DNA from: Streptomyces sp. NBC_01446
GTDB taxonomy: Bacteria; Actinomycetota; Actinomycetes; Streptomycetales; Streptomycetaceae
NCBI RefSeq assembly: GCF_026340095.1
Contig: NZ_JAPEPO010000001.1
Coordinates: 1,302,001-1,366,000, forward strand
DNA: 64,000 bases
Reading direction: 5' to 3'
Below the pieces are notes generated by a model. It saw nothing but the letters and a program-made list of their open reading frames with translations. It had not been told where the DNA came from and made no database searches. Position 1 is the first letter of the stretch. Each line of letters begins with the position of its first letter. This document shows, piece after piece, positions 38,114 through 61,543 of the stretch. The translations under genes were made by a program, and so were the position numbers.

Positions 38114-38648
38114 CTGCTGCACCTCTCCGTCGTGGCCTGACCGGAACATCGGCGACGTTACCGGCGGCCCATTCGGCGAACAATTAGGCACTTTCTTGTT
38201 CGTATTCGACTCGGTGCCGATTTCTGCGAGGGCCGTACATGAGCCGGCGCCCCTGTTGCCTTCTCGGCCGATCGTTCTCGCCCAGACTGCCGCACTCGAT
38301 CAGCCGCTCTTCCGGGTCAAGGAGAACCGTGCCGCTCTCTTCCCTCAGCTCAACGCCCTCGAGTGGGACGAGCAATCCAAGGCGCGCATCAGCGTGGCCC
38401 GCACCGAGGAGACCGACGGGCTCGGCGTCACCACGGCCTCCGGCGAGGTCGCCGACGCCACCACGCTCGCCCGCGACCTTCCGCAGCCTGGTCATCAGCC
38501 TCGCCCACCTCGCCGGATGGCGAAACAACGCCGCCGCCCACGACCACTATCGCAACCACCCAGCCGACGCCCTACGCAGACTCGGTCTCATCACATGAGC
38601 ACGCATCACGCCTGAGAGTCGAACCGAAAGCGCGGCTGCGCTCGACGA
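38114..38648. other. Degenerate stretch inside the composite transposon
   Basis: A plus-strand frame ends at 38598 with VISLAHLAGWRNNAAAHDHY, then RNHPADALRRLGLIT, preceded in a different frame by a plausible coding segment (RVKENRAALFPQLNALEWDE). It looks like the broken C-terminal half of a gene, possibly from another mobile element. I cannot assign the family. Confidence 0.35.
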
Positions 38649-42129: not shown

Positions 42130-42150
42130 GGTGGTCTGAGTCCCTCTTCC

Positions 42151-43796: not shown

Positions 43797-43955
43797 ATGG
43801 AAAAGCAGCGACGGAAATACCTCGAGTGTCCCTGCGGCGAACTGCTCGAGGGCAGCAACAACGACGCCCTCGTAGCCGGGGTCCAGGCTCATCTGCGCGC
43901 GGCGCACCCCCACTTGGAGTACGACCGGGAGCAGATCCTGCTCATGGCCTACTGA
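43797..43955 (+). CDS. DUF1059-like small protein
   Basis: From ATG 43797 a 52-residue protein reads MEKQRRKYLECPCGELLEGS, then LVAGVQAHLRAAHPHLEYDR. The CPCG pair with a later HLRAAHP recalls DUF1059 proteins, which carry a small Cys/His metal-site pattern. A longer frame open from 43512 has no coding character upstream of 43797, so the short form is preferred. It ends 7 bases into the convergent lyase gene. The function is unknown. Confidence 0.5.
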   Translation: MEKQRRKYLECPCGELLEGSNNDALVAGVQAHLRAAHPHLEYDREQILLMAY

Positions 43956-44788
43956 CCGTCTCGTCCGGCCCTGTGCAGGATCGCCTCGGCCCGGGCCAGG
44001 ACCGGGGCGTCGACCATATGCCCGTCGACGCGAACCGCTTCGCCCTCGCCGACGGCGGCCAGCACGCTCCGCGCCCAGTCGAGCGACTCGGCGCTCGGCC
44101 GGAACGCCGCATGGGCCCCTGCCACCTGCCGCGGATGGATTAGAAGCTTGCCCGCGAGGCCGACTTCCTGCGCGCACCTCAGATCGTCGGCCAGGGCCTG
44201 TTCATCGTCCAATGCGGTGGTCACCCCGTCGATCGGCCCCGGGAGACCGGCCAGCCGTGAGGCATGCACCAATGTCGACCGGGCGTGCAGCATCGCCGAC
44301 CCGGTCGGCTCCGCCCCGATGTCGAGGGCGTAGTCGAGGTGTCCGAAGGCCAGCCGGACGACACCGGCGGTGGCCGCCAGTTCATACGCGTGCGCCACTC
44401 CCTCCGCCGACTCGATGAGGGGGATCACCGGGACGTCGGTGAGGCCCGCGACCGATGCCGCCGAGGAACGGGTGTCCGCCTTGGCGAGCATCACCGCGAG
44501 CAGGCCGGGCAGGTCGGTGAGGGCTTCCAGGTCGCGGTGGTGGTGCGGACTGGTGACCGGGTTGACCCGTACACAGGCACGGCCACGAGCCGCCAGATAC
44601 TCCGCGACTGCTTTGCGCGCGCTGTCCCTGCGCCCCTCGGCGACGGCGTCCTCCAAATCGATGACCACGACGTCCGCCCCAGCCGCGGCCGCCTTGGCGA
44701 ACCGCTCGGGGCGATCGCCGGGCACGAACAGGAAAGAGACGGCCGATCGCAGCACGTCGCTCGCCTCCGGTGCAGTCAGTCCGGTCAT
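43949..44788 (-). CDS. HpcH/HpaI (CitE-like) CoA-ester lyase
   Basis: This protein of about 279 residues belongs to the CitE/citramalyl-CoA lyase family. It has FLFVPGDRPERFAKAAAAGA, the VVIDLEDAV metal motif, ACVRVNPVTS, VMLAKADT, IPLIESAEGVAHAYELA, LAFGHLDYALDIGAEP and LLIHPRQV. ATG 44788 is preferred; a GTG at 44803 would overlap the stop of the CaiB gene. Such enzymes cleave 3-hydroxyacyl-CoA thioesters such as citramalyl- or malyl-CoA. It pairs with the CaiB-type CoA-transferase and probably releases acetyl-CoA plus an oxoacid. Confidence 0.85.
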   Translation of the reverse strand: MTGLTAPEASDVLRSAVSFLFVPGDRPERFAKAAAAGADVVVIDLEDAVAEGRRDSARKAVAEYLAARGRACVRVNPVTSPHHHRDLEALTDLPGLLAVMLAKADTRSSAASVAGLTDVPVIPLIESAEGVAHAYELAATAGVVRLAFGHLDYALDIGAEPTGSAMLHARSTLVHASRLAGLPGPIDGVTTALDDEQALADDLRCAQEVGLAGKLLIHPRQVAGAHAAFRPSAESLDWARSVLAAVGEGEAVRVDGHMVDAPVLARAEAILHRAGRDGQ

Positions 44789-44799
44789 CTCGCTGCCTC

Positions 44800-45963
44800 T
44801 CACGCCTGGACCGGCTCGACGGCGGCCGTGATCCCGAACTCGGACAGCACGGTGGCGGTGTGCTCACCGACGTCGGGAACGGGCCCCATGACCGGCTCGA
44901 GGCCGTCCATGGTGACTGGCGGCACCAGCGCCCGAAGGGTTCCCTTGGGCGACTCGTACGTCTTCCACCGGCCGCGGGCCTCCAGTTGCGGGTGGGCGGC
45001 GAGCCCGTGCATGTCCCGCAGCAGGGCGTTGGCTATGCCCGCCTCCTCCAGCTTCGCGGCGACGTCGGCCGCGGTGCTGCCGAGGAAGGCACGCTCGATC
45101 TCGCCGCGCAGATCATCCGCGTTCTCCACGCGCAGGGAGTTGCGGAGATACCGCGGGTCCTCGGCCAGTTCGGGCCGGCCGAGGATCTTCTCGCAGAACA
45201 CGCGCCACTCGCGTTCGTTCTGCAGGCCGAGGAAGACGAGGCTGCCGTCCCCGCAGCGGAAGGGGCCGTACGGGGAGATGGCGGCGTGGCGGGCCCCGGT
45301 GCGAGCCGGCGCCGTGCCGCCGTAGGAGGCGTAGTTGAGCGGGTAGGCCATCCACTCGGCGAGCGCCTCGAGCATGGAGATCTCGATGGTCGCGCCTTCC
45401 CCGGTCTGCCCGCGGCGGATGACCGCGGTCAGAATGCCCGTGTAGGCGTACATGCCTGACGCGACGTCCGCAATGGAGATGCCGACCTTCGAAGGCTCCT
45501 CCTCGGTGCCTGTGATGGAGACCAGTCCCGCCTCGCACTGCACGAGGAGGTCGTAGGCCTTCTTGCCGGAGTACGGCCCTCCTGCGCCGTATCCGGAGAC
45601 CGACACATGGATGAGTCCCGGGTTCTCGGCACGCAGTTCGGCGGCGCCCAGGCCGAGCCGTTCCGCTGCGCCGGGCGCGAGGTTCTGGATGAAGACGTCG
45701 GCATGGCGGACCAGTTCGCGGATGGCCGCCTGGCCGTCCTCGCTCTTGAGGTCGAGGCAGACCGATTCCTTGGAGCGGTTGAGCCAGACGAAGTGGCTGG
45801 CGAGACCGCGCACGGTCTCGTCGTAGCCGCGGGCGAAGTCACCGACTCCCGGCCGCTCGATCTTGATGACCCGGGCGCCCAGATCGGCGAGCTGCCGCGT
45901 GGCGAACGGGGCCGCCACCGCCTGTTCGAGCGCGACGACGGTCAGGCCTCGGAGGGGATGCAT
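44800..45963 (-). CDS. CaiB/BaiF (class III) CoA-transferase
   Basis: This 387-residue protein starts at ATG 45963 after AGGAG. It shows the class III pattern: LRGLTVVALEQAVAAPFATR, KIERPGVGDFARGYDETVRG, SVCLDLKSEDGQ, the conserved active-site Asp in SIADVASGMYAYTGIL, and PYGPFRCGDG. It would activate a dicarboxylic or aromatic acid as a CoA thioester, using succinyl-CoA or acetyl-CoA. The following gene encodes a CitE-type lyase and a MaoC-like hydratase lies nearby, so an itaconate/mesaconate-like C5 route is conceivable. The acceptor is unproven. Confidence 0.85.
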   Translation of the reverse strand: MHPLRGLTVVALEQAVAAPFATRQLADLGARVIKIERPGVGDFARGYDETVRGLASHFVWLNRSKESVCLDLKSEDGQAAIRELVRHADVFIQNLAPGAAERLGLGAAELRAENPGLIHVSVSGYGAGGPYSGKKAYDLLVQCEAGLVSITGTEEEPSKVGISIADVASGMYAYTGILTAVIRRGQTGEGATIEISMLEALAEWMAYPLNYASYGGTAPARTGARHAAISPYGPFRCGDGSLVFLGLQNEREWRVFCEKILGRPELAEDPRYLRNSLRVENADDLRGEIERAFLGSTAADVAAKLEEAGIANALLRDMHGLAAHPQLEARGRWKTYESPKGTLRALVPPVTMDGLEPVMGPVPDVGEHTATVLSEFGITAAVEPVQA

Positions 45964-45990
45964 GCGCGTACTCCTGAATAGAGGGCGGGC

Positions 45991-47196
45991 TCAGCGGGCG
46001 AGAAGGGAGGGGCTTTCCAGCGTTTTGGTGAAGTACAGGACCTCGGCGGCGAGTTCGGGCTCGCGGCCCATCCGGCGGAAGATCTCCAGGTCCTGGTCGA
46101 GCTTGGCGGAGTCGCCGGAGTGGAAGATCAGCTGCTTGTTGGAGGTGGCGCGCGGGCTCGCCTTGTCGACGAAGGCCGTGCGACGGGCATCGGCGTAGCG
46201 GGTGAGGACGCTGTCGTCGACGCCCTTCACGACGACCGCGCCGAGCGTCTCGATCAGCGCGTACGCGTCGAAGAGGCCCATGGTCAGGCCGAGCCCGCCA
46301 CAAGGATTGGTGGCGTGCGCCGCGTCGCCGGCCAGCAGCACCCGGCCGGCGCGGTAGGTCGACGCGCTGCGCTGGTGCATCCGGTAGGGGGAGATGGCAT
46401 CCAGCTCGATCCTCTCCATGACGTCCTCGCCGAAGACCTGCGCCAGGAACCCCGGCAGGCGCTCGGTCACCGTCTCGGCGGGGAGCGCTGCGTCCTCCAT
46501 GTAGGTGTAGCGCCACAGGCCGTGCTCACAGGACTCGTCGATCTTGGCGATGATGGCGCCGTACTTCTCGTCGACGTAGAACGTCGACTGGGCCCAGCCC
46601 TCCCGGTCGTCGGGGAAGCGGATGTTGGCGGCCACGAACCGTTCCGGCCAGGTCATGCCGTCGAACCCGAGTCCCAGCGCGCCACGGACTGCCGAGCGTG
46701 CGCCGTCCGCGCCCACCACCCAGGCCGCTCGGAGCGAGGTCTCGCCGGTGTCCGACCTCAGGCGCAGTTCGGCGCCCGACTCGTCCTGGGAGACGCCGAT
46801 CAACTCATGGCGCCACAGGACACGGGCGTTGGGGAACTTCTCCACCTCGTCGAGGATGATGCGGGCGAGTGCCCCCTGGCCGAGGTGGAGGTTGTACGGG
46901 TGCTTGACCCGGCCCGCGAGGGGTTGGAGTCCGTACTCGACGATCTCGCCGGTCCTGCGCACGCGGTAGGCGTAATCCTGCTTGAAGAAGCCTGCCGTCC
47001 TGGCCGCCTCGAAGAGGCCGAGCCGGTCGAGGCCGTCCAGGGTCGACCAGTGATAGACGATCGCCCGGGGCGCATCCTGAAGACCGGGGGCACGTTCGAC
47101 AACAGTGACCTCGATTCCCTGCTGGGCGAGGCCGAGTGCGGTCAGGAGCCCTGTCGGTCCAGCGCCGACCACCACGACCTGTTGCTCTTCGCTCAC
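45991..47196 (-). CDS. FAD-dependent aromatic monooxygenase (PHBH/MhpA-like)
   Basis: This 401-residue class A flavin hydroxylase has QVVVVGAGPTGLLTALGLAQ, ending in QGIEVTVVER, the DG motif WVVGADGARSAVRGALG, and the GD motif VLLAGDAAHATNPCGGLGLT, with the N-P-x-G-G-x-G-x-N/T form of phenol and 3-(3-hydroxyphenyl)propionate hydroxylases. GTG 47196 follows GGAGG. It heads the operon with the CaiB and CitE-type genes. It would hydroxylate a phenolic substrate with NAD(P)H and oxygen. It differs clearly from the salicylate-type enzyme at 29429-30634. Confidence 0.82.
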   Translation of the reverse strand: MSEEQQVVVVGAGPTGLLTALGLAQQGIEVTVVERAPGLQDAPRAIVYHWSTLDGLDRLGLFEAARTAGFFKQDYAYRVRRTGEIVEYGLQPLAGRVKHPYNLHLGQGALARIILDEVEKFPNARVLWRHELIGVSQDESGAELRLRSDTGETSLRAAWVVGADGARSAVRGALGLGFDGMTWPERFVAANIRFPDDREGWAQSTFYVDEKYGAIIAKIDESCEHGLWRYTYMEDAALPAETVTERLPGFLAQVFGEDVMERIELDAISPYRMHQRSASTYRAGRVLLAGDAAHATNPCGGLGLTMGLFDAYALIETLGAVVVKGVDDSVLTRYADARRTAFVDKASPRATSNKQLIFHSGDSAKLDQDLEIFRRMGREPELAAEVLYFTKTLESPSLLAR

Positions 47197-47227
47197 CGTC
47201 AGCCTCCACAAATTCCGTATTTTTTCT

Positions 47228-47249
47228 GGGATTTCAGCTTAGGAATCCC
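47228..47249. promoter_or_regulatory. Inverted repeat in the promoter region of the monooxygenase-CaiB-CitE operon
   Basis: GGGATT (47228-47233) and AATCCC (47244-47249) flank a 10-base centre just upstream of the monooxygenase start, in AT-richer sequence. It is a possible operator or promoter element. The other bases of 47197-47415 show no gene. Confidence 0.35.
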
Positions 47250-47415
47250 GCACTTCACCATGAACGAGAATTGGGTCGACCGCCAATGCCACCTATTCGC
47301 CCAGGCGATTCACTTCACGCATGCAATTCGGAGCGTCGACCTTTCCGCGCTGTTGCGGATGCCGGGAGAATTGCAGAGACCGTGAAACTCGCCGGACGCT
47401 CGAGGCCGATGCCGA

Positions 47416-47465
47416 GGACGCCTCCACCTTCACTCGGCGGCCAAGATCACGGGGCGGAGGCGTCC
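47416..47465 (-). terminator. Inverted repeat after the ferredoxin reductase gene
   Basis: GGACGCCTCC (47416-47425) and GGAGGCGTCC (47456-47465) pair perfectly over 10 bp with a 30-base loop, 14 bases beyond the stop of the ferredoxin reductase gene. It probably ends the long operon that runs from 55867 to 47479. Confidence 0.5.
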
Positions 47466-47478
47466 GGCTGAGGCCTCC

Positions 47479-48699
47479 TCAGCCGACCGGAGCCGGGCCG
47501 GAAGTGAGGACCGTCCGGGCCTGCTGCCACGGCAGTTCGTTGCGTAGCATGGCGCGGAGCTTCACGAACTGGGCCCGGCGTTCGAAGGCCAGCACACCCG
47601 TGACGAGATCGCCCATGCGGTAGACGACGAGAAGCCCGTCGGCGTTCCGGTCCTCGACGATCTCCTCCGTGCCGGTGCGGTAGCCGGCGAACTGGATGCG
47701 GACACCGTGCTGGTCCGACCAGAAATAGGGCACGCTGCCGCAGACGACAGGGTCCTCGCCAGCGAAGACGTTGACGGCGTTGATGCCGGCCACGCGCCCC
47801 TGCTCGGCCGCGTTGGTCCAGTGCTCGATCCGCATCGTGGCGCCCCACCGCGGATTGCGCCAGCGCACGGCGTCACCGGCGGCGAAGACCCGCTCGGCCG
47901 CCTTGAGCGTCGCGTCGCAGACGATGCCGTTGTCGAGCAGCACGCCGGACTCCTCCAGCCAGGCCGTCGACGGCCGTACGCCGACCCCGACCAGGATGAC
48001 GTCCGCCGGCACCCGCGAATCGTCGTCGAGCAGAAGGAACCGCCGCCCCCCGTCCTCGCCGAGTCCGGTAACGGCCGCGCCGAATCGTAGCTGAACACCG
48101 GCGGCCCGGTGCAAGGCCTGGTACTCCCGCGCGACAGCGTCGCCGAACCGGCCCAGCGGCCTGTCCGCCAGGTCGACCACGGTGACCCGGCGGCCGGCCT
48201 TGGCCAGGGTGGCCGCGAACTCCCCGCCGATGAATCCCGCGCCGATGACAGCGACGTGCGCACCCGGCCGCGACACCGCCGCGCGCAGCCCGACGGCGTC
48301 CTCATAGCGGCGCAGCGTGAACACGTCTGGCTGACCGGCGAACACCGGCGGAACGAACGGCTCGCAACCTGTGGCTGCCACCAGAGCGCCGTATTCCAGG
48401 GAACCGACCGTGGTCAGCAGCCGGCGGTTCGCCACGTCAAGGCCCTCGGCCCGGGTGTTGAGCGCGAAGGTAACGCCCTGCTCACGCAGGCTTGCCACCG
48501 CCGGGTAGGTCAGCGCCTCGCGGTCGAAGGGTTCCTCCAGCCCCACCTTGGACAAGGGCGGACGCTCGTGCGGCGGATGAACCTCGTCGCTGACCACCAT
48601 GAGGCTGAGATGCGGTGCCTGGCGGGAGACGGTCTCCGCGGCGCGAAGAGCGGCGACGGATCCGCCGACGACCACGATGTCGGATCTACGCACGGTCAT
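47479..48699 (-). CDS. NAD(P)H-ferredoxin reductase (BphA4/putidaredoxin reductase type)
   Basis: This 406-residue two-dinucleotide-fold flavoprotein has FAD motif VVVGGSVAALRAAETVSRQA, SDEVHPPHERPPLSK, the NAD motif VAVIGAGFIGGEFAATLAKA, VILVGVGVRPSTAW and AAGDAVRWRNPRWG, with the C-terminal dimer domain. It passes electrons from NAD(P)H to a ferredoxin. With the [3Fe-4S]-type ferredoxin (52126-52317) and P450 (50945-52120) of the same operon it makes a complete three-component P450 chain. Confidence 0.87.
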   Translation of the reverse strand: MTVRRSDIVVVGGSVAALRAAETVSRQAPHLSLMVVSDEVHPPHERPPLSKVGLEEPFDREALTYPAVASLREQGVTFALNTRAEGLDVANRRLLTTVGSLEYGALVAATGCEPFVPPVFAGQPDVFTLRRYEDAVGLRAAVSRPGAHVAVIGAGFIGGEFAATLAKAGRRVTVVDLADRPLGRFGDAVAREYQALHRAAGVQLRFGAAVTGLGEDGGRRFLLLDDDSRVPADVILVGVGVRPSTAWLEESGVLLDNGIVCDATLKAAERVFAAGDAVRWRNPRWGATMRIEHWTNAAEQGRVAGINAVNVFAGEDPVVCGSVPYFWSDQHGVRIQFAGYRTGTEEIVEDRNADGLLVVYRMGDLVTGVLAFERRAQFVKLRAMLRNELPWQQARTVLTSGPAPVG

Positions 48700-48704
48700 G
48701 GGTC

Positions 48705-49517
48705 TCACGCCTCCGTCAGGGTGCTCACGGCGCACACCGTCCCGGCGGCGCTGCGTGCCTCGGCGCCCTGAGCGAGGCCGTCCGGGCCCGGCACGACCGA
48801 GAAGGTCTGCGCCTTGGTCATCGGCGAGACCAGGCGGTAGCCGAAGGTCCTGCCGATCAGGTCGATGCCCTCGCGGCGCATGTGCTCGCCCATCATGAAG
48901 GCGAGGAGCGGGCCGTGGATCACCAGCCCGTCGTAGCCTTCATTGCGGCACCAGTCCAGGTCGTAGTGGATCCGGTGGGCGTTGTACGTCAGCGCCGAGA
49001 ACCGGAACAGCATTCGCTCGTCCGCGGAGAGCCGAAGCTGCGGGCCGGCCGGGGGCTCGGGCGGCGCCGGGGGTACCGGCAAGGCGCTCGAACCCGGGGC
49101 GCGGTAGACGATGTCCTGCTCCTCGCGGATCACCAACCGCCCGTCCTGAAAGATCTCCTGAGCGACCGTCGTGAGGGTCAGAAGACCGGTACGTCCCTGC
49201 TTGTCGACGGACCGGGCGACGAAGGTCACCTTGGTCGCCGGCTTGCCGATCTCGAGGAGCCCGTGCGTCGTGACCCGCCCGCCGCCGAACATGCGCCGGC
49301 GGCCCGGACCCGGGGGCGCCGGGATGCCCACAACGGGGTGCCCGTCCTCACCCAGTTCGCTCTCGCGGCTGCGCTCGAGCAGGTAGCTCCAGTGCCACAA
49401 GGGCAGCACGCGGTCCCCGGCCTTGTGGGGGATGTCGAGATCGAGCATCGCTGCCAGCGCTTCGGCCGGCTCGGCGGCGATCACCTCGGTGCGCTCGACC
49501 GTTTCCTGATTCGTCAT
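48705..49517 (-). CDS. MaoC-like/FAS1-type dehydratase (mesaconyl- or itaconyl-CoA hydratase family)
   Basis: This is a double hot-dog protein of about 270 residues. The N-terminal half has PLWHWSYLLERSRESELGED, then RRRMFGGGRVTTHGLLEIG; the C-terminal half has LFRFSALTYNAHRIHYDLDW, then EGYDGLVIHGPLLAF with the hydratase His. This architecture is that of HTD2/mesaconyl-C4-CoA and itaconyl-CoA hydratases. ATG 49517 is chosen among several close starts up to 49541. It adds or removes water on an enoyl-CoA, and fits between the CaiB CoA-transferase and CitE-type lyase of the neighbouring operon. Confidence 0.8.
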   Translation of the reverse strand: MTNQETVERTEVIAAEPAEALAAMLDLDIPHKAGDRVLPLWHWSYLLERSRESELGEDGHPVVGIPAPPGPGRRRMFGGGRVTTHGLLEIGKPATKVTFVARSVDKQGRTGLLTLTTVAQEIFQDGRLVIREEQDIVYRAPGSSALPVPPAPPEPPAGPQLRLSADERMLFRFSALTYNAHRIHYDLDWCRNEGYDGLVIHGPLLAFMMGEHMRREGIDLIGRTFGYRLVSPMTKAQTFSVVPGPDGLAQGAEARSAAGTVCAVSTLTEA

Positions 49518-49551
49518 GTCATCCGTTCCATTCATTCCCATGCGCGTCTGT

Positions 49552-50931
49552 TCATGCCCGTGCACGCAGGGAGTGCAGGAGCTCCGAGAGATCGGGCGCG
49601 TCCTCCAGATGCTCCACCGCGTCGACGAGTTCGGCGGCGGCCCCAGCGCCGAGCGGCTCGACCAGGGCCCGCGCCTTGGCCACAACTTCCTCGTGGGACA
49701 TCGGGTTCTGCGCCGAGCCCTTCGCCGTGGTCGGGTTGCCCGCCTCCAGGGTGAGCACCTCGCCGTCGATGAGCTCGATATCGAAGCGGGGGCCGTCCTC
49801 GAGCTGGATGCCCGGGTCGGCGTGCATGGAAATCTTGCTCATCGTCTCCCTGACACGCGGCTCGTGAACGCGGGGCGGCTCGTACTCGTCCAGGCCGAGC
49901 CGACCACCGCACAGCGCCAGGGCGACCGAGTACGGGAGGCTGAACTGCGCGTCGAACAAGGTCTCCACGGGGTCGACGGACAGCATGTTGATCGCCGTCT
50001 CCCCTGCGGTGATGCGCAGGCTCCGTACGTCCTCCGCCTGGATCGGGCGCGAGGCCAGCAGGTCCATCACCGTGTCGATGGCCGAATGGCAGCCTCGGCA
50101 GCACGCGTACGGCTTGAGGTAGGAGCTCGCGACATTGAAGTCGGTGCCCAGGTCCTTCAGCGCCGCATCGGCAGACCCCTCCCCACCGTTGTAGGTGGCG
50201 AACAGTCCGCCCCACTTCGCCTCGAAGAGCCGACGCGGACCGGTGAGTCCCCCACGGGCGAGGACGGCCGCGTCCACGCCCGTCTCGCCGGCCTTCCCGG
50301 GGTGGAGTCGCTTGGTCATGGCTCCGTCGTCCTTGAAGGCCCACACGCCGCCCGTGAACGAGCCGGCGATGCCGAGCGCGTCGGCGAACCGCTCCGCGTC
50401 GAGGCCAAGGGACTTCGCGGCCGCGGCGGCCGCGGCGATGCTGCCCATCGTGCCGCTGGAGTGCCAGCCGCGGTCGGTGTGCGCGGCGAAGCCGCCCAGG
50501 GCCCCCAGGGCTCGGTAGCCGATGTCGTATCCGGCGACGGTGGCCGTGATGAGGTCACGCCCTGAGCCACCCGCCGCCTCGGCCGTGGCGATCACGGCCG
50601 GCAGCACGGTCGAACCGGCGTGCCCGGGGCCGCCTCCGTCGTCGAAGTCGCGGGCATGCGCCGACATGCCGTTGGCGAGGGCGGCCTGGGCAGGGGTGAG
50701 CCTGAGGCGCGTGCCCCACACGAGGCTGCCCGACGCGGTGTCCTGGATCCCCGCCAGCGCGTCGATCACGCTGGTCGCCTCGGCGGTGGTCGCGCCGAGC
50801 ATCGCGACGGCGAGCGTGTCAAGGATGTGGTCCTTGACTCCCGCGACCACGTCCTCGGGCAAGTCTTGGAAGGCGATGCCCGCCCAGTGAGCTGCGAGCG
50901 TCTCCGTCAACGAGGGTGTGCTACTGGTCAT
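49552..50931 (-). CDS. MmgE/PrpD family protein (2-methylcitrate dehydratase/cis-aconitate decarboxylase superfamily)
   Basis: This 459-residue protein shows the superfamily's conserved points: SAHARDFDDG, GHAGSTVLPAVIATAEA, DRGWHSSGTMGSIAAAAAAA, then KRLHPGKAGETGVDAAVLA, and YKPYACCR-like SYLKPYACCRGCHSAID. These supply the His, Lys and Tyr residues of the active site seen in PrpD and cis-aconitate decarboxylase. Catabolic operons often contain homologues of unknown role that dehydrate or decarboxylate carboxylic acids. Here it lies between the P450 and MaoC-like genes, with stop and start gaps under 40 bases. The substrate is uncertain. Confidence 0.83.
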   Translation of the reverse strand: MTSSTPSLTETLAAHWAGIAFQDLPEDVVAGVKDHILDTLAVAMLGATTAEATSVIDALAGIQDTASGSLVWGTRLRLTPAQAALANGMSAHARDFDDGGGPGHAGSTVLPAVIATAEAAGGSGRDLITATVAGYDIGYRALGALGGFAAHTDRGWHSSGTMGSIAAAAAAAKSLGLDAERFADALGIAGSFTGGVWAFKDDGAMTKRLHPGKAGETGVDAAVLARGGLTGPRRLFEAKWGGLFATYNGGEGSADAALKDLGTDFNVASSYLKPYACCRGCHSAIDTVMDLLASRPIQAEDVRSLRITAGETAINMLSVDPVETLFDAQFSLPYSVALALCGGRLGLDEYEPPRVHEPRVRETMSKISMHADPGIQLEDGPRFDIELIDGEVLTLEAGNPTTAKGSAQNPMSHEEVVAKARALVEPLGAGAAAELVDAVEHLEDAPDLSELLHSLRARA

Positions 50932-50944
50932 TTGCCTGGCCCCC

Positions 50945-52120
50945 TCACGGCTTCAGGTCGACGGTGAGTTTGCCGATAAGCCACCGGCCGCCCGCCTGGT
51001 CGATCCGTGTGGCGTCCTCGACGACCCGGGCGCCCGGGTAATGCTCGGCCAGGTGGCGCACCACCTCCTCGATCTCGGCCTTGGCCAGCCCCTGCCCCAG
51101 GCAGTTGTGGGAACCGGTGCTGAAGGTGAGCGGCTGGTTGCGCTCCCGATCGAGGTCGAACTCCTCGGAGTGCTCGAACTTCTCCGGGTCGCGGTTGGCC
51201 GACCAGACCGCCACGTGCACGTCGCTCCCCTTGGGGATGACGGTGCCCTCAAGCTCGACGTCCTCGACGGCGATCTTGCTCACCACGCCGGTGCGTGGGA
51301 AGAGCCGCAGGCTCTCGACGACCGCCGCGGGGATCAGCTCCGGATCGGCAACGATCCGCTGCCAGGCCTCCCGATCACGGAGCAGGGTCCAGACGACCAG
51401 GCCGGCCTGGTGCGCGGTGTTGACGGAGCTCGCCTCGAGCATCGAGGTCGCCTCGGCCAGGACCTCCTGCTCGGTCAGCTTGCCTTCGTCGCCGAGGGAG
51501 ATGAGGTACGACAGCATGTCATCGCCCAGCCCCTCGGCGCGCTTCCTGGCGATGAGGCCGGCGAGGTAGGCGAAGAGCTCGTCGTAGGCCTCCACGATCA
51601 CCGGGGTCAGACTGCGGTCCCTGGTGAGCAGTGACAGAGTGCGCTCGGACAGGCTTTGCACCTGGGGTGCGTCGCTCGCGGGCGCGCCCGCGAGGTGACA
51701 GTAGACCAGCGACGGGATGCGCTGGGCGACGCCCCGGTAGAAGTCGACGGGCGCCGAGTCGTCGAGATCGGCGTTGATCGACTCCACGATCCGGCGGAGC
51801 ACGTCGCGTGTGTTCTTCACCGTCACCGGGCTCATGAAGCGGGCGAGCGGCAGACGCAGGCGAAGGTGCCGGTCGCCCTCCAGCATGATGATGCTGCGGG
51901 CCCGGAAGTCGTGGACCGGGCCGGAGGTGATGCCGAACTCCTCCATCAGCCGCAGCGCGGAGTTCTGGAACCGCTTGTCGCGCAGCACCTTGGAGGCCAG
52001 GTCGTAGCCAAGGACGGCGGTGCCGTAGTCGCCCTGCACAAGGGCGTGTCCGTCGAGCGCACCGCCCTGGTGCGTGCCGGCGTCGGGCGAGAACGGATCA
52101 AAGGTCGCTATCTCGTTCAT
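50945..52120 (-). CDS. Cytochrome P450 with unusual I-helix
   Basis: This 391-residue bacterial P450 has the ExxR in VESLRLFPRTG, the NRDPEKFEHSEEFDLDRERN meander and the haem loop FSTGSHNCLGQGLAKAE. The I-helix reads EATSMLEASSVNTAHQ, where the expected A-G-x-(D/E)-T is replaced, so the normal acid-alcohol pair for oxygen activation seems missing. ATG 52120 lies 6 bases after the ferredoxin gene. With the ferredoxin and reductase of the operon it forms a class I system. Substrate is unknown, but the hydroxyquinol context suggests an aromatic compound or its side chain. Confidence 0.86.
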   Translation of the reverse strand: MNEIATFDPFSPDAGTHQGGALDGHALVQGDYGTAVLGYDLASKVLRDKRFQNSALRLMEEFGITSGPVHDFRARSIIMLEGDRHLRLRLPLARFMSPVTVKNTRDVLRRIVESINADLDDSAPVDFYRGVAQRIPSLVYCHLAGAPASDAPQVQSLSERTLSLLTRDRSLTPVIVEAYDELFAYLAGLIARKRAEGLGDDMLSYLISLGDEGKLTEQEVLAEATSMLEASSVNTAHQAGLVVWTLLRDREAWQRIVADPELIPAAVVESLRLFPRTGVVSKIAVEDVELEGTVIPKGSDVHVAVWSANRDPEKFEHSEEFDLDRERNQPLTFSTGSHNCLGQGLAKAEIEEVVRHLAEHYPGARVVEDATRIDQAGGRWLIGKLTVDLKP

Positions 52121-52125
52121 GGGGG

Positions 52126-52317
52126 TCACCCGCGGGCGATCGCGCCGACGGGGCAGCACACGATGACCTCTTCGAGCTCGGCCTCACGCCCGGGGTCCAC
52201 CTCGGTCCTGAGCTGCTCGAGCAGGCCATCGTCACCGATGCGGAATACGTCCGGCATCAGTGCGGCACACGTGCCGTTGGCGTCGCACCGGTCGAAATCG
52301 ACCTTCACTTTGATCAT
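52126..52317 (-). CDS. [3Fe-4S]-type ferredoxin
   Basis: This 63-residue ferredoxin has ligands in DRCDANGTCAALMPDVF and the C-terminal VIVCCPVGAIARG. The C-x5-C spacing and C-P ending, without a fourth central Cys, indicate a single [3Fe-4S] cluster as in P450-linked actinomycete ferredoxins. ATG 52317 follows AAGGAG; an upstream in-frame ATG at 52338 is less well placed. It lies directly before the P450 gene and would carry electrons from the reductase encoded at 47479-48699. Confidence 0.87.
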   Translation of the reverse strand: MIKVKVDFDRCDANGTCAALMPDVFRIGDDGLLEQLRTEVDPGREAELEEVIVCCPVGAIARG

Positions 52318-52380
52318 GGCAAGGGACTCCTTTGTCATTTCGTTCGTGCCCGGGGTGCCGGCCTCGGGCGGATCACTTGC

Positions 52381-53301
52381 TCAGGCCTCGGCCGACGCGA
52401 GCACGATGTCGAAGCGGACCTTCGACCAAGTGCCGTCGACGACCTGGCCGTCCGGCGTGAGTGTTCCGGCCGGCTGTTCCTCGAAGTCCTTGACCAGCGA
52501 CTCCTTCACGCCGAAGACGCTGTCCGTGTCGAGGAGTTCGTCACCGCGCACGAAGATGTGCGTGACCAGCTCACGGTGACCGGGTGCGCGAACGAGGAAG
52601 TGCAGGTGGGAAGCGCGCATCGGGGACCGGCCGACGGCCTGCAGCAGCCGTCCGACAGGGCCGTCGTGCGGGATCGGGTAGGGGGTCGGCGTGATGCCCC
52701 AGAAGCGGTAGGAACCCCGGACGTCGGTGCGGAAGTGGGCGCGTGCGGCGGTGCGGTCGTCCGTGTACTGCAAGTCGTACAGGCCGTCCTCGTCGGCCTC
52801 CCACACCTCGACCAGTGCCCCGGGAACCGGGTTGCCGTCGGTGTCGGTGACGGTGCCCTCGACCCAGCACGGCTGCCCGGCCGCGCCGAACGACATGTCG
52901 CCGCCAAGCGGGATCTCCGGCGAGCCTTCGACGAAGAACGGGCCCCACACGGTCGCCTCGGTGGCGTTCCCGTACACCTCGTTGTTGACGGTGATGGTCT
53001 GCATCGAGGCGCCGAGAACGTCGGAAAGCAGGATGAACTCCTGCCGTTTGTCATCGGTGATGTGGCCGGTGGCGGTGAGGAACTCGATCGCCTTGTTCCA
53101 TTCGGCCTCGGTCAAACGTGTCTCTTGGATGAAGGCGTGGACGTGCCTGACGAGCGTGGTAATGAGCTCCTTGAGCCGCGGATCCACGCAGTTGTCGAAG
53201 GAGCGCACCACCCGCTCGGTCAACTCCGCCTCCCGGCGGGCCTGTTCCGTGCCGGAAGCGCTTGATGTCTCGGTAACCGAGGCCTCGCGGTTGTCGTTCA
53301 T
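52381..53301 (-). CDS. Hydroxyquinol 1,2-dioxygenase (module 2)
   Basis: This 306-residue intradiol dioxygenase is a close paralogue of the one at 28471-29367. It has [60 protein letters not shown], iron-ligand Tyr in DGLYDLQY and [14 protein letters not shown], and His in RASHLHFLV. The ATG overlaps the TGA of the upstream maleylacetate reductase gene (ATGA). It converts hydroxyquinol to maleylacetate for that reductase. Confidence 0.88.
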
Positions 53302-54353
53302 ACCGGCCCCTGTCCGGACCATGCAGACTGCAACAGGGCGGTGATGCTCGCCGGAGTCACCGGCGCGGGGTTGTTGGCCGGAACGGCCTTCACAATGGGG
53401 CCGACGGCCTTGGCGATGCCGTCGGCGGGCATGCCGTGATCCTTCAACGCCCTTGGCGCGCCCAGGACTTCACGCAGGGCTGCCAGCCCATCGGACGCCG
53501 TTGCCGAGCCGAACGCCCGGGCGATCCGGGCCTCGGCCTCGGGTGCGTGGGGTGCGTTGAAGGCCAGCACGTACGGAAGCACGACCGCATGGGTCTGCGC
53601 GTGCGGCAGGTCGAACATGCCGCCGAGCACATGGCAAATCTTGTGGTGCATGCCCGAGCCGGCGGAGGCGAACGCGACCGCCGCCAGGTACGCGCCGTAC
53701 AGCGTCTTCTCGATTCCCTCGAGGGAGGCCGGGGCATCCGCCACCTGCTGCAGCCCTTCGGCCAGGCCGCGGATGCCCTCCTCGGCCAGCGCCCGGTCGA
53801 TCGGATCAGCGCGTGGACCCCACATCGAGTCCACGCAATGGGCCAGCGCGTTCAGACCGCTGGAAACGGCCATCTCGCCGGGCAACGTGGTCAGCAGGCA
53901 AGCGTCGTAGACGACCGAGCGCGGCAGCACCTTCGGATCGGCTCCGGTGCGCTTGGTCCCATCCTCGGTCAGGCCCCACACATCGGTCGCCTCGCTGCCG
54001 GCGTACGTCGTCGGCACGGCGACGACCGGCAGGCCGGTGGTCAGGGCGACCGCCTTGCCGAGTCCGGTGGTCGAGCCGCCTCCTACCGTGACGATCACAT
54101 CCGCGCCGCAGGAGGCGGCAGCCTCCCGGGCTCGGGCGGCCACCTCGACCGGCACATGCATCACGACCTCTTCGTGAAGCAGTGCGACCGGAACCGCCGC
54201 GGCGATCGGGGCGGCCAGAGCCGCCTCCCGCTCCGAGGCGATCAGCATCACCTTGGCGCCACCGAGCGCCTCGACCTCGGCCGCCACGGCCGACGGGGCC
54301 TCGCCGGAGGCGAAGACCACGCGCTGCGGCAGCGTCTCGTGGACAAACTTCAT
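53298..54353 (-). CDS. Maleylacetate reductase (module 2)
   Basis: This 351-residue paralogue of the protein at 27394-28458 has [77 protein letters not shown] and [17 protein letters not shown]. In this operon it precedes the dioxygenase, whereas in module 1 the order is reversed, so the modules are not a simple recent duplication. It yields 3-oxoadipate from maleylacetate. Confidence 0.88.
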
Positions 54354-54357
54354 CGGT

Positions 54358-55053
54358 TCACGCTTCCTTGGTCCGCGGCAGCCATCCGAGCAGAGCTGAG
54401 GCGACCCCGTCGGGATCCTCGAGGGCGGAGAAGTGCCCTACGTCCTCCAGCGTCACCAGCCGCGCGCCGGAGATCCCTGAGGCGAGCGCGTGGCCCAGGC
54501 TCGGCGGCGTGATCGCGTCGTTGTCGCCCACCAGGACCATCGTCGACACGGAGATCGCCGACAGTTCCTGGCGTCGGTCGTACCGCTCGGCGACCGCCCG
54601 CTGCTGGTCCTTGAAGACCTCCACACCCAGGGCGCGGACCATCTTTCCCGCGAGCGCGGTGATGTCGGGCCGGGCCAGCGCCACGGCGCCCGCGATGATG
54701 TCGGCGGCCTTCTCGAAATCACCGGACTCCGCCAGACCGATGGCCCTGAGCGAGTTGTCCCGGCGTTGCGGCTCCGCGGCAATCGCGGAGGTGTTGAGCA
54801 AGGCGAGGCCCTGGACCCGGCCAGTGCCTCGCAGCACGACGTCGAGCGAGACGTACCCGCCCATCGAGATGCCGGCGAGGTTGAACTTCTCCGGCGCCTT
54901 CTCCAGGACCGAGTCGGCCATCGCCTTGATCGAGGCACCCTCGCCCCGGATCACCCGGCACTCGACATGTGCGGACAGCCGCTCGACTACGGGCTGCCAC
55001 AGGCGCTCGTCCGCACCCAGCGCGGGGATCAGTACCAGTGGATGGTTCAGCAT
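54358..55053 (-). CDS. Alpha/beta hydrolase
   Basis: This 231-residue hydrolase has HPLVLIPALGADERLWQPVV, the nucleophile elbow LAGISMGGYVSLDVVL, the acid in MVLVGDNDAITPP and the His in LEDVGHFSALEDPDGV. ATG 55053 is best spaced from GGAGG (7 bases); ATG 55059 is too close. It resembles enol-lactonase/ester hydrolases of aromatic pathways. In the operon it lies between the SDR and maleylacetate reductase genes and could hydrolyse an ester or lactone formed upstream of hydroxyquinol. Confidence 0.8.
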   Translation of the reverse strand: MLNHPLVLIPALGADERLWQPVVERLSAHVECRVIRGEGASIKAMADSVLEKAPEKFNLAGISMGGYVSLDVVLRGTGRVQGLALLNTSAIAAEPQRRDNSLRAIGLAESGDFEKAADIIAGAVALARPDITALAGKMVRALGVEVFKDQQRAVAERYDRRQELSAISVSTMVLVGDNDAITPPSLGHALASGISGARLVTLEDVGHFSALEDPDGVASALLGWLPRTKEA

Positions 55054-55069
55054 CTTCATTCCTCCTGGC

Positions 55070-55867
55070 TTACGCGGCACCATCGACATTGAGGACACAA
55101 CCGGAGGTGAACCCCGCCTCATCGGAGACGAGGTAGGCGACGGCGGCGGCGATCTCTGCACCGGTGCCCGTACGCCCCGCCGGGATCGCCGCACGGGTGG
55201 CCACCTGCGCCTCCTCGGGCAGCGCCTCGAACACCCGCCGCACCCGGCCCTGCTCCGGCAGGATCAGTCCGGGCGAGACGACGTTGACCGTGATGCCGAC
55301 GCTGCCCAGGTCCTTCGCGAGCTGCTTGGTGAGCCCGATGACCGCAGCCTTCGACGCGGCGTACGGCAGTCGCGCACCCACGGTGCCGGACGGTCCGGAG
55401 AGCCCGTTGGCCACCGCCGAGGAGAAGTTGACGATGCGCCCGAAGCCGTTCCGGCGCATCAACGGCACCGCCATCCGGCTGCACAGGAACGCGCTGGTCA
55501 CATTGGCGTTCAGGACCCGCGACCACATCTCGGGAGCGATGTCCTCGATGTCGTGGGCGGGCTCCGTTCCGCTGCCGCCCGCGGTGTTCACAAGCGCGTC
55601 GACCCGGCCGAAGTGGCTCTCGATCTCGGCGAAGGCGTCCGAGACGAGCGTGGCGTCCGCCAGGTCCGCCTTGACGGTGAGCACCCGGACCGCGGGGAAC
55701 GCGGCGCGGATCGCGGCGGCCGTGGACTCCAGGCCCTCGCCGTTGAGGTCGAGAAGTGCCAACTCGAATTCCTCGCCAGCTAGTTGGTGCGCGATCTCCG
55801 CGCCCAGGCCCTCAGCGCCGCCGGTCACCACGGCCACCTTCTTTTCCGTCTCCTGCGCTGACAGCAC
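55070..55867 (-). CDS. Short-chain dehydrogenase/reductase
   Basis: This 265-residue classical SDR has the cofactor motif VAVVTGGAEGLGAEIAHQLA, NTAGGSG (NNAG position), the catalytic Ser in VNFSSAVANG, the YAASK active-site pair and a PGLILPEQG loop. GTG 55867 follows GGAGGAG with good spacing. It is the first gene of the nine-gene operon down to 47479. It would oxidise an alcohol or reduce a ketone of the pathway substrate's side chain. Acidic residues after beta-2 (LLDLNGEG) favour NAD. Confidence 0.83.
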   Translation of the reverse strand: MLSAQETEKKVAVVTGGAEGLGAEIAHQLAGEEFELALLDLNGEGLESTAAAIRAAFPAVRVLTVKADLADATLVSDAFAEIESHFGRVDALVNTAGGSGTEPAHDIEDIAPEMWSRVLNANVTSAFLCSRMAVPLMRRNGFGRIVNFSSAVANGLSGPSGTVGARLPYAASKAAVIGLTKQLAKDLGSVGITVNVVSPGLILPEQGRVRRVFEALPEEAQVATRAAIPAGRTGTGAEIAAAVAYLVSDEAGFTSGCVLNVDGAA

Positions 55868-56173
55868 CGGACTCCTCCAGGACGTTCCGCCGGCTGCGAG
55901 CCATGAGCAGCCGCACAGGTCCGTACGACCCGCGGCCCCCAGCGTGTCCTACAGCGATCACGCACATCAATGACGAAAAAATTCGCCCAGCAATGCATTT
56001 TCCGTATGACATCCATGGCCGCCGGATTTGCGGCCGTCGGAAACACTCATGCGCGTATCGCATGGCCATCATGAACTTCCTGTGCCTATTCCCGCTCGCC
56101 GTGACTCCGCATGCTGCTGGGGGTGACCGGTGTTACCCGGACATCTGCATTTCCGCACCCTGTGGAGGAAGCC
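55868..56173. promoter_or_regulatory. Divergent promoter region between the SDR operon and the two-component monooxygenase
   Basis: This 306-base gap is AT-richer than its surroundings and must hold the promoters of both divergent operons. It includes a short inverted repeat, GGCCGC (56017-56022) with GCGGCC (56030-56035). No open frame here is convincing. The LysR gene at 58196 or another local regulator may act on it. Confidence 0.5.
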
Positions 56174-57379
56174 GTGACACAGTCAATTCCCGGATCGTTC
56201 CTGGCCGTTGAGCCGAATCCGGAGATCGTCTCCCGCGCGACGGCGCTGGTCCCGATGATCCGCGAGTACGCGAACCAGGGCGCCGAGGGCCGCCGGGTTG
56301 CGCCCGAGGTAATCAAGGAGCTGGACAGGGCCGACCTCTTCCGGCTCTTCCTGCCGGCGCGTTTGGGCGGTCTTGAGGCTTCGGCAGCGACAATCTTCGA
56401 GACGCTCGCGGAGGTGTCGCGCGGAGACGGCTCCACCGGCTGGGTGACCACACTGCTCTCGTCGGCCGCCGGCTATGTGTCCACCTTCCCCGACCAGGCC
56501 CAGCACGACATCTTCGGTGCGAACCCGCGTGCCCGCGTCTCGGGCACGTTCGCCCCCACCACGCAGGTCGAGCGTGTTGTGGAGGGCGGCTACCTGGTGA
56601 GCGGCCGCTGGCCGTATTCCTCAGGTTCCTTCGCCGCGGACTGGCTCACCCTGGGTCTCCTCATCCCGCGCGAGAATCCCGACGAGAACCCGGTCTCCAT
56701 GGCGCTCTTCCCCCGTGACGCCTGCCGGATCGAGCCCTCCTGGTTCGTCACCGGCCTCACGGGAACGGGCAGCGACACCGTGGTCGTCGACAACCAGTTC
56801 GTCCCGGACCACCGAATCCAGCCCATGCACAACATGCTCGACGGAGAATGGCTGACCTCGCACAAGGAGGACCGGGTCGCCGGCTGGCCGTTCAGCTCGC
56901 TCGTGTCTGTCATCCTCGCCGCTCCCCAGCTCGGGTTGGCCCGCCACGCGCTGGAGATCACCCGCGCCAAGCTGGGCGACAAGCGGGTGACGAACACGGC
57001 CTACCGCCAGGCCCGCCTGTCCCCCACCCACCAGCTCAACGTGGCCGATGCGGCGACCAAGCTCCACCTCGCTGAACTGGCCATGCGGCGTGTCGCGCAC
57101 GACATCGACACCGCGAGTGCCGAGCGCCGGCGGCCGGACGTGGAGACACGCGCCAGGATCCGCAACGACACGGGTGTCATCGCGGACCTGTGCAAGGAGT
57201 CGATCGGTCTCCTTCTGACGGCCAACGGCTCCGGTTCGTTCGCGGAGAGCAATGTCCTCAGCCGGATCTGGCGTGACTCGGAGATCGCGAACAGGCACGC
57301 GCACGTCACGTCGGGCATCGGCCGCGAGGCCTACGGCCGGATACTGCTGGGCAACCACGACCACCTGATCGAGCTGTGA
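56174..57379 (+). CDS. Flavin-dependent monooxygenase, oxygenase component (acyl-CoA dehydrogenase fold)
   Basis: This 401-residue protein has the acyl-CoA dehydrogenase-like fold of group D FMN monooxygenases such as HsaA and 4-hydroxyphenylacetate hydroxylase C2. It shows DLFRLFLPARLGGLEASAAT, then GDGSTGWVTTLLSSAAGY, a TGLTGTGSDTVVVDNQFVPD segment and C-terminal NVLSRIWRDSEIANRHAHVT. GTG 56174 follows GGAGG. The flavin reductase gene begins 2 bases after its stop, giving a two-component system. It probably hydroxylates a phenol, for example resorcinol to hydroxyquinol, since the divergent operon encodes hydroxyquinol cleavage. That substrate is inference. Confidence 0.83.
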   Translation: MTQSIPGSFLAVEPNPEIVSRATALVPMIREYANQGAEGRRVAPEVIKELDRADLFRLFLPARLGGLEASAATIFETLAEVSRGDGSTGWVTTLLSSAAGYVSTFPDQAQHDIFGANPRARVSGTFAPTTQVERVVEGGYLVSGRWPYSSGSFAADWLTLGLLIPRENPDENPVSMALFPRDACRIEPSWFVTGLTGTGSDTVVVDNQFVPDHRIQPMHNMLDGEWLTSHKEDRVAGWPFSSLVSVILAAPQLGLARHALEITRAKLGDKRVTNTAYRQARLSPTHQLNVADAATKLHLAELAMRRVAHDIDTASAERRRPDVETRARIRNDTGVIADLCKESIGLLLTANGSGSFAESNVLSRIWRDSEIANRHAHVTSGIGREAYGRILLGNHDHLIEL

Positions 57380-57380
57380 C

Positions 57381-57917
57381 ATGCCGACCATGACCGACAA
57401 CTCCCACATCGAAGGCGGCCGTGCGGCGATCCACGACGCGGCGGTCTACCGGCGTGTCCTCGGGCATGTCCCCACCAGCGTGGCCGTGGTGACCGCCACC
57501 GGCCGCTCGGGACGGCCGGTGGGCATGACCGTCGGATCGTTCACCTCCGTCTCCCTCGACCCACCACTGGTCGCCTTCTTCGTCGACCAGGCATCATCCA
57601 CCTGGCCTCACCTGTACGCGGCCGACCACTTCGGCGTGAGCATCCTGGGGCATGCCCAGAGCGAACTGTGCAGGGCGTTCTCCCGCCGCTCCGAGGACCG
57701 GTTCGTGGGCGTGGACTGGCACACGTCCGACCTGGGTGTCCCGCTCCTTTCGGAGGCCATCGTGACCCTGGAGTGCAGCCGGGCCAAGATCGACCTGATC
57801 GGCGACCACTACCAGGTGGTCGGCCGCGTCGAGTCGATGGAACTGCGTGCCTCGAACCCACCGCTGATCTTCCTGCAAGGCGGGTTCGTGGACATGGACG
57901 GCCCCTCCGCCTCCTGA
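57381..57917 (+). CDS. Flavin reductase (HpaC-like), partner of the upstream oxygenase
   Basis: This 178-residue flavin reductase-like split-barrel protein has FRRVLGHVPT-type YRRVLGHVPTSVAVVTATGR, then GMTVGSFTSVSLDPPLVAFF, HFGVSILGHAQSELCRAFS and IFLQGGFVDM. It reduces FMN or FAD with NADH and supplies it to the oxygenase encoded 2 bases upstream. A very strong palindrome follows the stop. Confidence 0.87.
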   Translation: MPTMTDNSHIEGGRAAIHDAAVYRRVLGHVPTSVAVVTATGRSGRPVGMTVGSFTSVSLDPPLVAFFVDQASSTWPHLYAADHFGVSILGHAQSELCRAFSRRSEDRFVGVDWHTSDLGVPLLSEAIVTLECSRAKIDLIGDHYQVVGRVESMELRASNPPLIFLQGGFVDMDGPSAS

Positions 57918-57972: not shown

Positions 57973-58195
57973 TCTTCGCTTTGGAAGGCCCGACCGGAAG
58001 GAGAGGCTCAGGAATTTCGCTGCGGCTATGCATCAGACGCATAATGCAGCGCCTGGATTGCACCGGCATTTGGCAACCGACCCGGGCTCACCGCCGTTTC
58101 ACGGGAATTTTCGGAATCCAGCGTGACCGCGATTATTGAAGGAACTATGCGTTGACTGTATGGTCCCCGCCAGAGCCGCAAGACCCGGAGGAACC

Positions 58196-61494: not shown

Positions 61495-61543
61495 TTTCCA
61501 CACCCTTGTTTCTGTCGAGTTCGAAGGTTGCATCCGGCCCCGG

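Follow-up and report, generated by a model that had tools for sequence, protein, structure and literature searches.

Hydroxyquinol cleavage joined to itaconate-like CoA genes: a recurrent unit of Streptomyces and Rhodococcus predicted to take apart two-ring plant phenols

Why do genes for the cleavage of a trihydroxylated benzene ring stand among genes that resemble those of itaconate breakdown? The question is raised by a locus of Streptomyces sp. NBC_01446, located in a stretch of 64,000 nucleotides (the window; positions 1302001-1366000 of contig C3 in the 10.9-Mb genome, here G000). A preliminary description had placed at 43949..55867 of this window twelve genes, encoding a short-chain dehydrogenase (SDR), an alpha/beta hydrolase (ABH), a maleylacetate reductase (MAR), a hydroxyquinol dioxygenase (HQD), a ferredoxin and its reductase (Fdx and FdR), a cytochrome P450, an MmgE/PrpD protein (PrpD), a MaoC-like hydratase, a flavin monooxygenase (FAD3), a CaiB-type CoA-transferase and a CitE-type lyase, and had suggested that one substrate yields both a trihydroxybenzene and a branched acid. 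That suggestion remains the best reading of the predicted functions. In the form proposed here, to which we assign a probability of about 0.55, the unit would take apart a two-ring plant phenol through an ipso-cut, with one ring leaving as hydroxyquinol and the linker as a branched dicarboxylic acid. Gene content, recurrence in ten loci and nearest solved relatives are read from the sequences, and every reaction step proposed below is inferred from them.

A unit shared by Streptomyces and Rhodococcus

As described, the twelve genes lie as open frames in two runs, both on the minus strand; their third-position GC is of the coding type, and Pfam backs ten of the eleven proteins scanned, the exception being the MaoC-like protein. 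By gene content, they are the middle of a larger, predicted catabolic unit of 18 core genes, common to Streptomyces and Rhodococcus, which reaches past the end of the window, so that the boundaries first given were too narrow. When the window genes and their recurrent neighbours were mapped (threshold 45% identity over 30% of the query), the unit was found in ten loci: seven of the genus of the window, one on a megaplasmid of Rhodococcus koreensis and two from the family of R. aetherivorans. The number of mapped genes per locus is 13 in one 22-kb contig and 16 to 25 in the others; five loci hold all 18 core genes and the remaining ones 12 to 16. The P450, PrpD, MaoC, SDR and ABH genes occur in all ten loci; Fdx, FdR, FAD3, CaiB, CitE and MAR in nine, as do the genes for an aldehyde dehydrogenase (ALDH) and for SnoaL, FAH and VOC proteins; HQD in eight; and an HsaA-like monooxygenase, a flavin reductase and NmrA in seven. 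Less frequent are a LigM/PurU/FolD group and an old-yellow-enzyme-like reductase (OYE), each present in four.

The order of the runs is shuffled between the ten loci while their content is kept. Shuffled order with kept content is what would be expected of one pathway rather than of a chance neighbourhood, and since the gene set recurs in ten loci, the co-location is not due to chance. The claim that the hydroxyquinol and itaconate-like modules belong together is supported. In R. koreensis (L116) and in G1588, one same-strand run reads FAD3-CaiB-CitE-ALDH-SnoaL-FAH-VOC-SDR-ABH-MAR-HQD, and in G1725 a run reads P450-PrpD-MaoC-FAD3-CaiB-SDR-ABH-MAR-HQD. Among the mapped genes, FAD3 directly adjoins CaiB in all nine loci that hold both.

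Several gaps in this pattern speak against a single pathway. No HQD was found in the covered stretches of G827 and G769, and G127 and G032 have HQD and MAR in separate runs; the HsaA-like gene was not found in the stretches covered of three of the ten loci, one of them the 22-kb contig; and G1725 shows no CitE match in the 54 kb around its cluster. Absences mean little in G707, which is the 22-kb contig, and in G827, where the match begins near a contig end. The position of HQD, together with the fact that each module is known alone, would suit two neighbouring but independent pathways, one a general funnel for hydroxyquinol and the other a route for itaconate or methylsuccinate. Such an arrangement is, in our view, very unlikely: the modules stand together in most of the ten loci and in two lineages, with P450, FAD3 and SDR genes interleaved, and this genome has a further CitE/MaoC/PrpD/CaiB set elsewhere, accompanied by a transporter and a GntR regulator, as well as a second, classical hydroxyquinol set within the window.

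PrpD is a good marker for the unit, HQD a poor one, as CitE and CaiB stand alongside in only one (L027, Streptomyces sp. LUP47B) of the best 80 of 356 HQD loci. In searches with PrpD, the counts of which include the own genome and repeats of a single genome, matches were obtained in 7 of 392 genomes of the genus (E value 1e-80), 3 of 147 of the order (1e-60), 2 of 394 at class level (1e-80), at phylum level (1e-120) the own genome alone out of 396, 1 of 46 reached via hydroxyquinol loci, two of which lie in one genome (1e-80), and 2 of 301 of the R. aetherivorans family (1e-100). One of the matches within the genus, G646, is only 42% identical and was excluded from the ten loci, none of the other cluster genes being in its map. 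The family to which an Arthrobacter genome belongs gave no match in 245 genomes (1e-100), although the PrpD protein list contains Paenarthrobacter proteins at 63%. At a minimum of 60% identity, a single one of 72,556 plasmid records carries PrpD, the 1.24-Mb plasmid of R. koreensis R85.

At the level of proteins, 64 of 120 listed PrpD clusters (231 found) are at least 58% identical to the window protein. Using a shared longest-contig size as a proxy for location on the same contig, 14 of 36 PrpD-clade clusters with contigs of at least 20 kb match the FAD3 clade and seven match the LigM-like list, against none of ten distant PrpD homologues compared with the FAD3 clade, a mild control in that these come largely from other groups. 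This count took PrpD rows P0121-P0184, FAD3 rows P0241-P0295 and the first 33 LigM-like rows; it left out PrpD rows P0185 and P0186 (62 and 59% identity), P0187 (54%) and the six rows P0188-P0193 (one at 48%, the rest fragments), as well as the FAD3 fragments P0296-P0297.

A candidate splitting enzyme and the ring-cleavage genes

The enzyme most apt to link the two modules is FAD3 (45991..47211, minus strand; the start may be 47196). Its nearest relatives in the PDB, similar over nearly the full length, are HspB (296 bits), which is the 6-hydroxy-3-succinoylpyridine 3-monooxygenase, and PnpA (281 bits), the next match being at 91 bits. Both work by ipso-hydroxylation, HspB expelling succinic semialdehyde and PnpA nitrite. 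FAD3 is therefore likely, judging from these relatives, to be the enzyme that splits ring from side chain, a role missed when it was entered simply as a flavin hydroxylase. Ipso-cleavage of an aryl ketone, with a trihydroxybenzene and a succinate-type fragment as the products, would explain the union of both modules.

The ring so released would meet HQD (52381..53322) and MAR (53298..54353), an intradiol dioxygenase and a member of the Fe-ADH family by Pfam, which adjoin each other on the minus strand as in the hydroxyquinol pathway. HQD is 67-77% identical to the best 80 of 356 loci, 69 of which also hold MAR. The MAR proteins of the ten loci are of more than one kind (52-56% identity in six). 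Next to them lie, also on the minus strand, the PcaD-like ABH (54358..55059), which Pfam recognizes and NCBIfam scores below cut-off and for which a start near 55059 is likelier than 55194, and the SDR (55070..55867), supported by Pfam. The classical hydroxyquinol set of the window occupies 27394-30775 on the minus strand and comprises a maleylacetate reductase, an intradiol dioxygenase 67% identical to the first and a FAD hydroxylase; an IclR gene follows on the plus strand (30770-31678).

In the preliminary description, cleavage of hydroxyquinol was the sole ring branch, and a second one was missed. Beyond the SDR, the plus strand encodes a flavin-dependent phenol monooxygenase of the HsaA/4-hydroxyphenylacetate (4-HPA) hydroxylase type (56111..57379; 164 bits to HsaA in the PDB and 235 of 450 bits to the NCBIfam HsaA model), its partner flavin reductase (57381..57917; Pfam) and a LysR regulator (58136..59131; Pfam, seven of the ten loci). 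Locus mapping places the NmrA, VOC, FAH, SnoaL and ALDH genes just beyond the window end. In weak alignments, the first half of the VOC protein corresponds to the later part of BphC and its second half to the first part of a catechol 2,3-dioxygenase, which suggests an extradiol-type protein with swapped domain order. FAH is HpaG-like and ALDH is similar to the phenylacetaldehyde and HpaE dehydrogenases, with every score under the curated cut-offs. Together with the HsaA/4-HPA-hydroxylase-type monooxygenase, these three proteins suggest a second, meta-type ring cleavage, and hence a substrate with two rings.

A further group on the minus strand, accessory in that it occurs in four of the ten loci, bears on demethylation. 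It consists of a predicted tetrahydrofolate-dependent relative of the LigM/DesA-type O-demethylases (62545..63921), which scores 160 bits to LigM in the PDB and misses both the DesA (209 of 800 bits) and the LigM (192 of 580 bits) cut-offs, and of the adjacent genes, supported by Pfam, for a PurU-like formyltetrahydrofolate hydrolase (61544..62416) and for FolD (60637..61671), the latter involved in one-carbon handling. LigM relatives act on o-methoxyphenols. No protein named SesA, the sesamin enzyme, occurs among the 120 listed of 610 LigM-like homologues. Two other loci, G827 and G032, have a second ferredoxin/reductase/P450 set adjoining VOC (L102 5364-8161, and contig C1 of G032 at about 525.6-528.4 kb), and at this site G000, G769 and G127 have NmrA and LigM/PurU/FolD. 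Together, the demethylase group and this second set suggest that the substrate may, but need not, carry methoxyl groups.

The same genes could be assigned to an isoflavonoid or deoxy-flavonoid with a resorcinol A-ring, the middle ring of which would be opened so that ipso-hydroxylation of a 2,4-dihydroxyphenyl ketone gives hydroxyquinol directly, the B-ring being hydroxylated and opened by the VOC branch. Such an ipso attack would be expected to yield 1,2,4-trihydroxybenzene without demethylation, the HpaE-, HpaG- and HPA-hydroxylase-like genes suit an arylacetate B-ring, the O-demethylases would be accessory, as for formononetin-type methyl ethers, and bacterial oxidative isoflavone clusters are described in the available text of one study (PMC11069340). 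This substrate class is a serious rival, though a rather unlikely one. It does not account for the set of MmgE/PrpD, CaiB, MaoC and CitE, neither a CoA step nor a lyase nor itaconate is mentioned in the Variovorax ifc paper, and the action of LigM relatives on o-methoxyphenols also stands against it.

The itaconate-like CoA genes

The MaoC-like hydratase (48705..49541, minus strand) owes its naming to its solved relatives. Its only Pfam match is to a FAS1-like dehydratase (21.9 bits, cut-off 22), and in the PDB just two entries are strong relatives (143 bits each, the next at 12): 8khg, which carries the name itaconyl-CoA hydratase, and the MaoC-domain protein 8huc. A start at 49541 or 49535 is likelier than one at 49685 and gives a protein of 276-278 amino acids without overlap with MmgE/PrpD. 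Relatives at 62-65% identity are found on Prescottella (Rhodococcus) equi plasmids; nine of the eleven listed are annotated as mesaconyl-C4 CoA hydratase and two as hypothetical, and they are possibly linked to itaconate in macrophages.

For the CitE-type lyase (43949..44803, minus strand; Pfam HpcH_HpaI), the best PDB matches are two acyl-CoA lyase entries, 8khl and 9nzb (188 bits, the next at 135), the first of which we take to belong to an itaconate/methylsuccinate cluster. The protein is predicted to cut a citramalyl-CoA-like ester by a retro-Claisen reaction. The adjacent CaiB (44800..45963, minus strand; Pfam CoA_transf_3), 76-92% identical in eight other loci, is predicted to activate a branched dicarboxylate. 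CaiB, MaoC and CitE occur jointly in eight of the ten loci, CaiB being missing in G827 and CitE in G1725. The likeness to itaconate degradation noted at the outset stands for the hydratase and the lyase, and the literal itaconate route is doubtful.

The MmgE/PrpD protein (49552..50931, minus strand) is recognized by Pfam and scores 136 bits to IDS epimerase and 133 bits to cis-aconitate decarboxylase in the PDB. The identification as cis-aconitate decarboxylase, entertained in the preliminary description, was rejected, as the protein is not clearly closest to the decarboxylases and the MmgE/PrpD protein of itaconate clusters is, in the available text of the study concerned, a methylsuccinate isomerase (PMC12290011). 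Residues H92, D95, H104, H157, K207 and K273 are invariant in seven sequences, with spacings like those given in the accessible part of that study, according to which the family shares a 1,4-dicarboxylate substructure among its substrates and the isomerase active site could fit larger ones (PMC12290011). At the site of the second-base tyrosine of the isomerase, four to five residues before the third histidine, all seven sequences have Thr or Asp, an assignment made by spacing and numbering alone. The protein is a predicted dehydratase or isomerase acting on a 1,4-dicarboxylate, and as a guess, a one-base reaction such as the dehydration of a hydroxymethyl-succinate would fit.

The isomerase of itaconate clusters also lends itself to another explanation, in which the ring substrate is a methyl-substituted hydroxyquinol: intradiol cleavage and reduction would give a methylated 3-oxoadipate and then methylsuccinyl-CoA, to be completed by the itaconate-like genes, and both modules would be joined via one ring. 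This seems quite improbable, given the identity of HQD to hydroxyquinol-type loci, the differences in kind between the MAR proteins and the apparent absence, judged by spacing, of the isomerase tyrosine. No methylsuccinyl-CoA dehydrogenase gene was seen among the mapped core genes, where the only protein of the acyl-CoA-dehydrogenase fold is the HsaA-like one, and FAD3, VOC and FAH would be left unexplained.

The second CitE/MaoC/PrpD/CaiB set of the genome (L090 8165-16089; about 1.398-1.406 Mb of C3), accompanied by a sugar-type transporter and the GntR regulator, is possibly an ordinary itaconate or methylsuccinate set. SucCD (41245-43332), beside CitE, was rejected as a member of the unit, as it was not found in the stretches covered of the other nine loci and its SucC is 99% identical to a second genomic copy. 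The stretch 41254-43529 duplicates one at 3.298 Mb of C3 (DNA 96.7% identical over 2296 bp); a third SucC, at 63%, lies at 1.4176 Mb of C3, less than 20 kb from the second CitE/MaoC/PrpD/CaiB set. In the available text of a study of itaconate degradation, residual growth on itaconate is credited to moonlighting SucCD, and the small VOC protein of the cluster studied there, of 127 amino acids, is a 2-hydroxyparaconate lactonase, in contrast to the two-domain VOC protein of 401 amino acids found here (PMC9875883).

Other neighbours of these genes complete the layout. The gap between the two runs measures about 270-280 bp and is occupied by an opposite-strand LysR gene in three relatives (G707, R. 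koreensis and G1588). Upstream of it lie, on the minus strand, the P450 (50945..52120; Pfam, its start chosen among alternatives) and its predicted partners, a small ferredoxin (52126..52338; named from its translation, with no NCBIfam match at 1e-20) and FdR (47479..48735, the start may be 48699; Pfam Pyr_redox_2 and Reductase_C). At the site of the I-helix motif, which usually carries an acid before the threonine, the P450 has ASSVNT, and this may hint at an unusual oxygen chemistry. The accessory OYE gene (36923..38191, minus strand; Pfam Oxidored_FMN) has counterparts at 72-93% identity in G127, R. koreensis and G1588. Together with an HxlR regulator, it is flanked by two inverted, 100% identical copies of a 1372-bp DDE transposase element (34467-35838 and 38649-40020) in a composite-transposon-like arrangement; G127 has a related regulator gene and the 93% OYE gene inside the same cluster.

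The proposed route and known systems

Taken together, the predicted functions could be ordered as follows. A para-hydroxylated aryl ketone or acid would first be prepared by the P450 and the HsaA-like monooxygenase, joined in some loci by the LigM-type demethylase; in it, the HspB-like FAD3 would hydroxylate the ring carbon bearing the acyl group, the chain leaving as a succinic-semialdehyde-type fragment. Breakdown of the ring would lead, via the intradiol dioxygenase and then maleylacetate reductase, to 3-oxoadipate. The chain would be oxidized by the aldehyde dehydrogenase, dehydrated or isomerized by MmgE/PrpD and provided with CoA by CaiB; hydration of the CoA ester by the MaoC-like protein and cleavage by the CitE-type lyase would then, as with itaconate, leave a smaller CoA ester together with a 2-oxo acid. 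The second ring is likely opened by the products of the VOC, FAH and ALDH genes.

As a first guess, a lignan is the most likely class of substrate; it would fit best because guaiacyl and syringyl units are possible for both rings and the oxidized core would be a 2,3-disubstituted succinate. A bolder version, possible but doubtful at present, would make the unit the first complete actinobacterial gene set for lignan mineralization, with a new way of breaking the central bond: HspB-like ejection of one ring as a (hydroxy)hydroquinone, formation of a substituted itaconate from the 2,3-disubstituted succinate thus exposed, which MmgE/PrpD would dehydrate, and a retro-Claisen cut of the beta-beta' bond through CaiB, MaoC and CitE to pyruvate and arylpropionyl-CoA or hydroxypropionyl-CoA, the second ring going to VOC, FAH and ALDH.

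Besides the gaps between loci mentioned above, a number of scores and observations weigh against the proposed route. CitE reaches 145 of the 375 bits of the RipC model in NCBIfam, and none of the six hits in the genome passes the RipC/Ccl cut-off. CaiB, a transferase of family III, has no clear substrate and shows no particular closeness to the itaconate-type CoA-transferases: the models for succinate-glutarate and formyl-CoA transferases outscore the one for mesaconate, all below cut-off, and no itaconate CoA-transferase model is among its hits. PrpD scores far under its NCBIfam cut-off, the lack of a methylsuccinyl-CoA dehydrogenase among the mapped core genes counts here as well, and the VOC protein matches solved extradiol dioxygenases weakly (26 bits). 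As LigM is confined to four loci, methoxyl groups are not a fixed part of the substrate. Finally, the available text of the genome paper of R. koreensis R85 (DSM 116493) stresses the degradation of phytoalexins, benzoate and biphenyl rather than lignans, and the words hydroxyquinol and lignan do not occur in it (PMC10986565). Biphenyl phytoalexins, to which that paper drew attention, were set aside as the substrate, as they leave the CoA genes unexplained.

If the proposed dismantling of a two-ring phenol is correct, the itaconate-type CoA module serves beyond itaconate and methylsuccinate, in breaking down the branched cores of aromatic dimers that have lost a ring, and the locus supplies a concrete candidate for an ipso-hydroxylase in a named strain, R. 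koreensis R85. In line with the initial statement that no described pathway has this gene set, the open-licence literature yielded no paper containing both 'hydroxyquinol' and 'itaconyl-CoA' and, by titles, no combined route of lignan, itaconate, ipso-hydroxylation and hydroxyquinol; the closest matches to the gene set in that literature are without MaoC or MmgE.

Several known systems come close to parts of the unit. With the itaconate/methylsuccinate clusters (ict-ich-ccl; rip; PA0878-PA0883), it shares, as far as the available texts describe them, the joint occurrence of CaiB, MaoC-like, CitE-type and MmgE/PrpD proteins (PMC12290011; PMC9875883). It differs from them in that no acyl-CoA dehydrogenase of that kind was seen, that ring-cleavage and P450 genes are joined on, that CitE lies far below the RipC cut-off and that MmgE/PrpD seems to lack the second-base tyrosine. 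With the actinobacterial hydroxyquinol pathway of the resorcinol type, it shares the intradiol dioxygenase and maleylacetate reductase; classical loci pair these with a resorcinol-type hydroxylase, as at 27394-30775, whereas their partners here are an HspB/PnpA-type enzyme and CoA genes. Similar to the lignan route proposed here, in the pinoresinol route of Pseudomonas SG-MS2, considered along with that of Novosphingobium LY, a putative ipso-hydroxylase parts the two rings, which pass via protocatechuate and methoxyhydroquinone, as given in the available texts (PMC12607616; PMC12997858). The pseudomonad route is there described as only partly characterized, its ipso-hydroxylase being named as putative (PMC12997858), and the main text of the Novosphingobium LY paper mentions neither CoA nor itaconate. 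Finally, FAD3 resembles HspB of nicotine degradation and PnpA of p-nitrophenol degradation across almost its whole length; unlike for HspB, the hydroxyquinol genes imply an aryl ring rather than a pyridine as its substrate. All the enzymes come from known families, and it is their combination that appears to be new.

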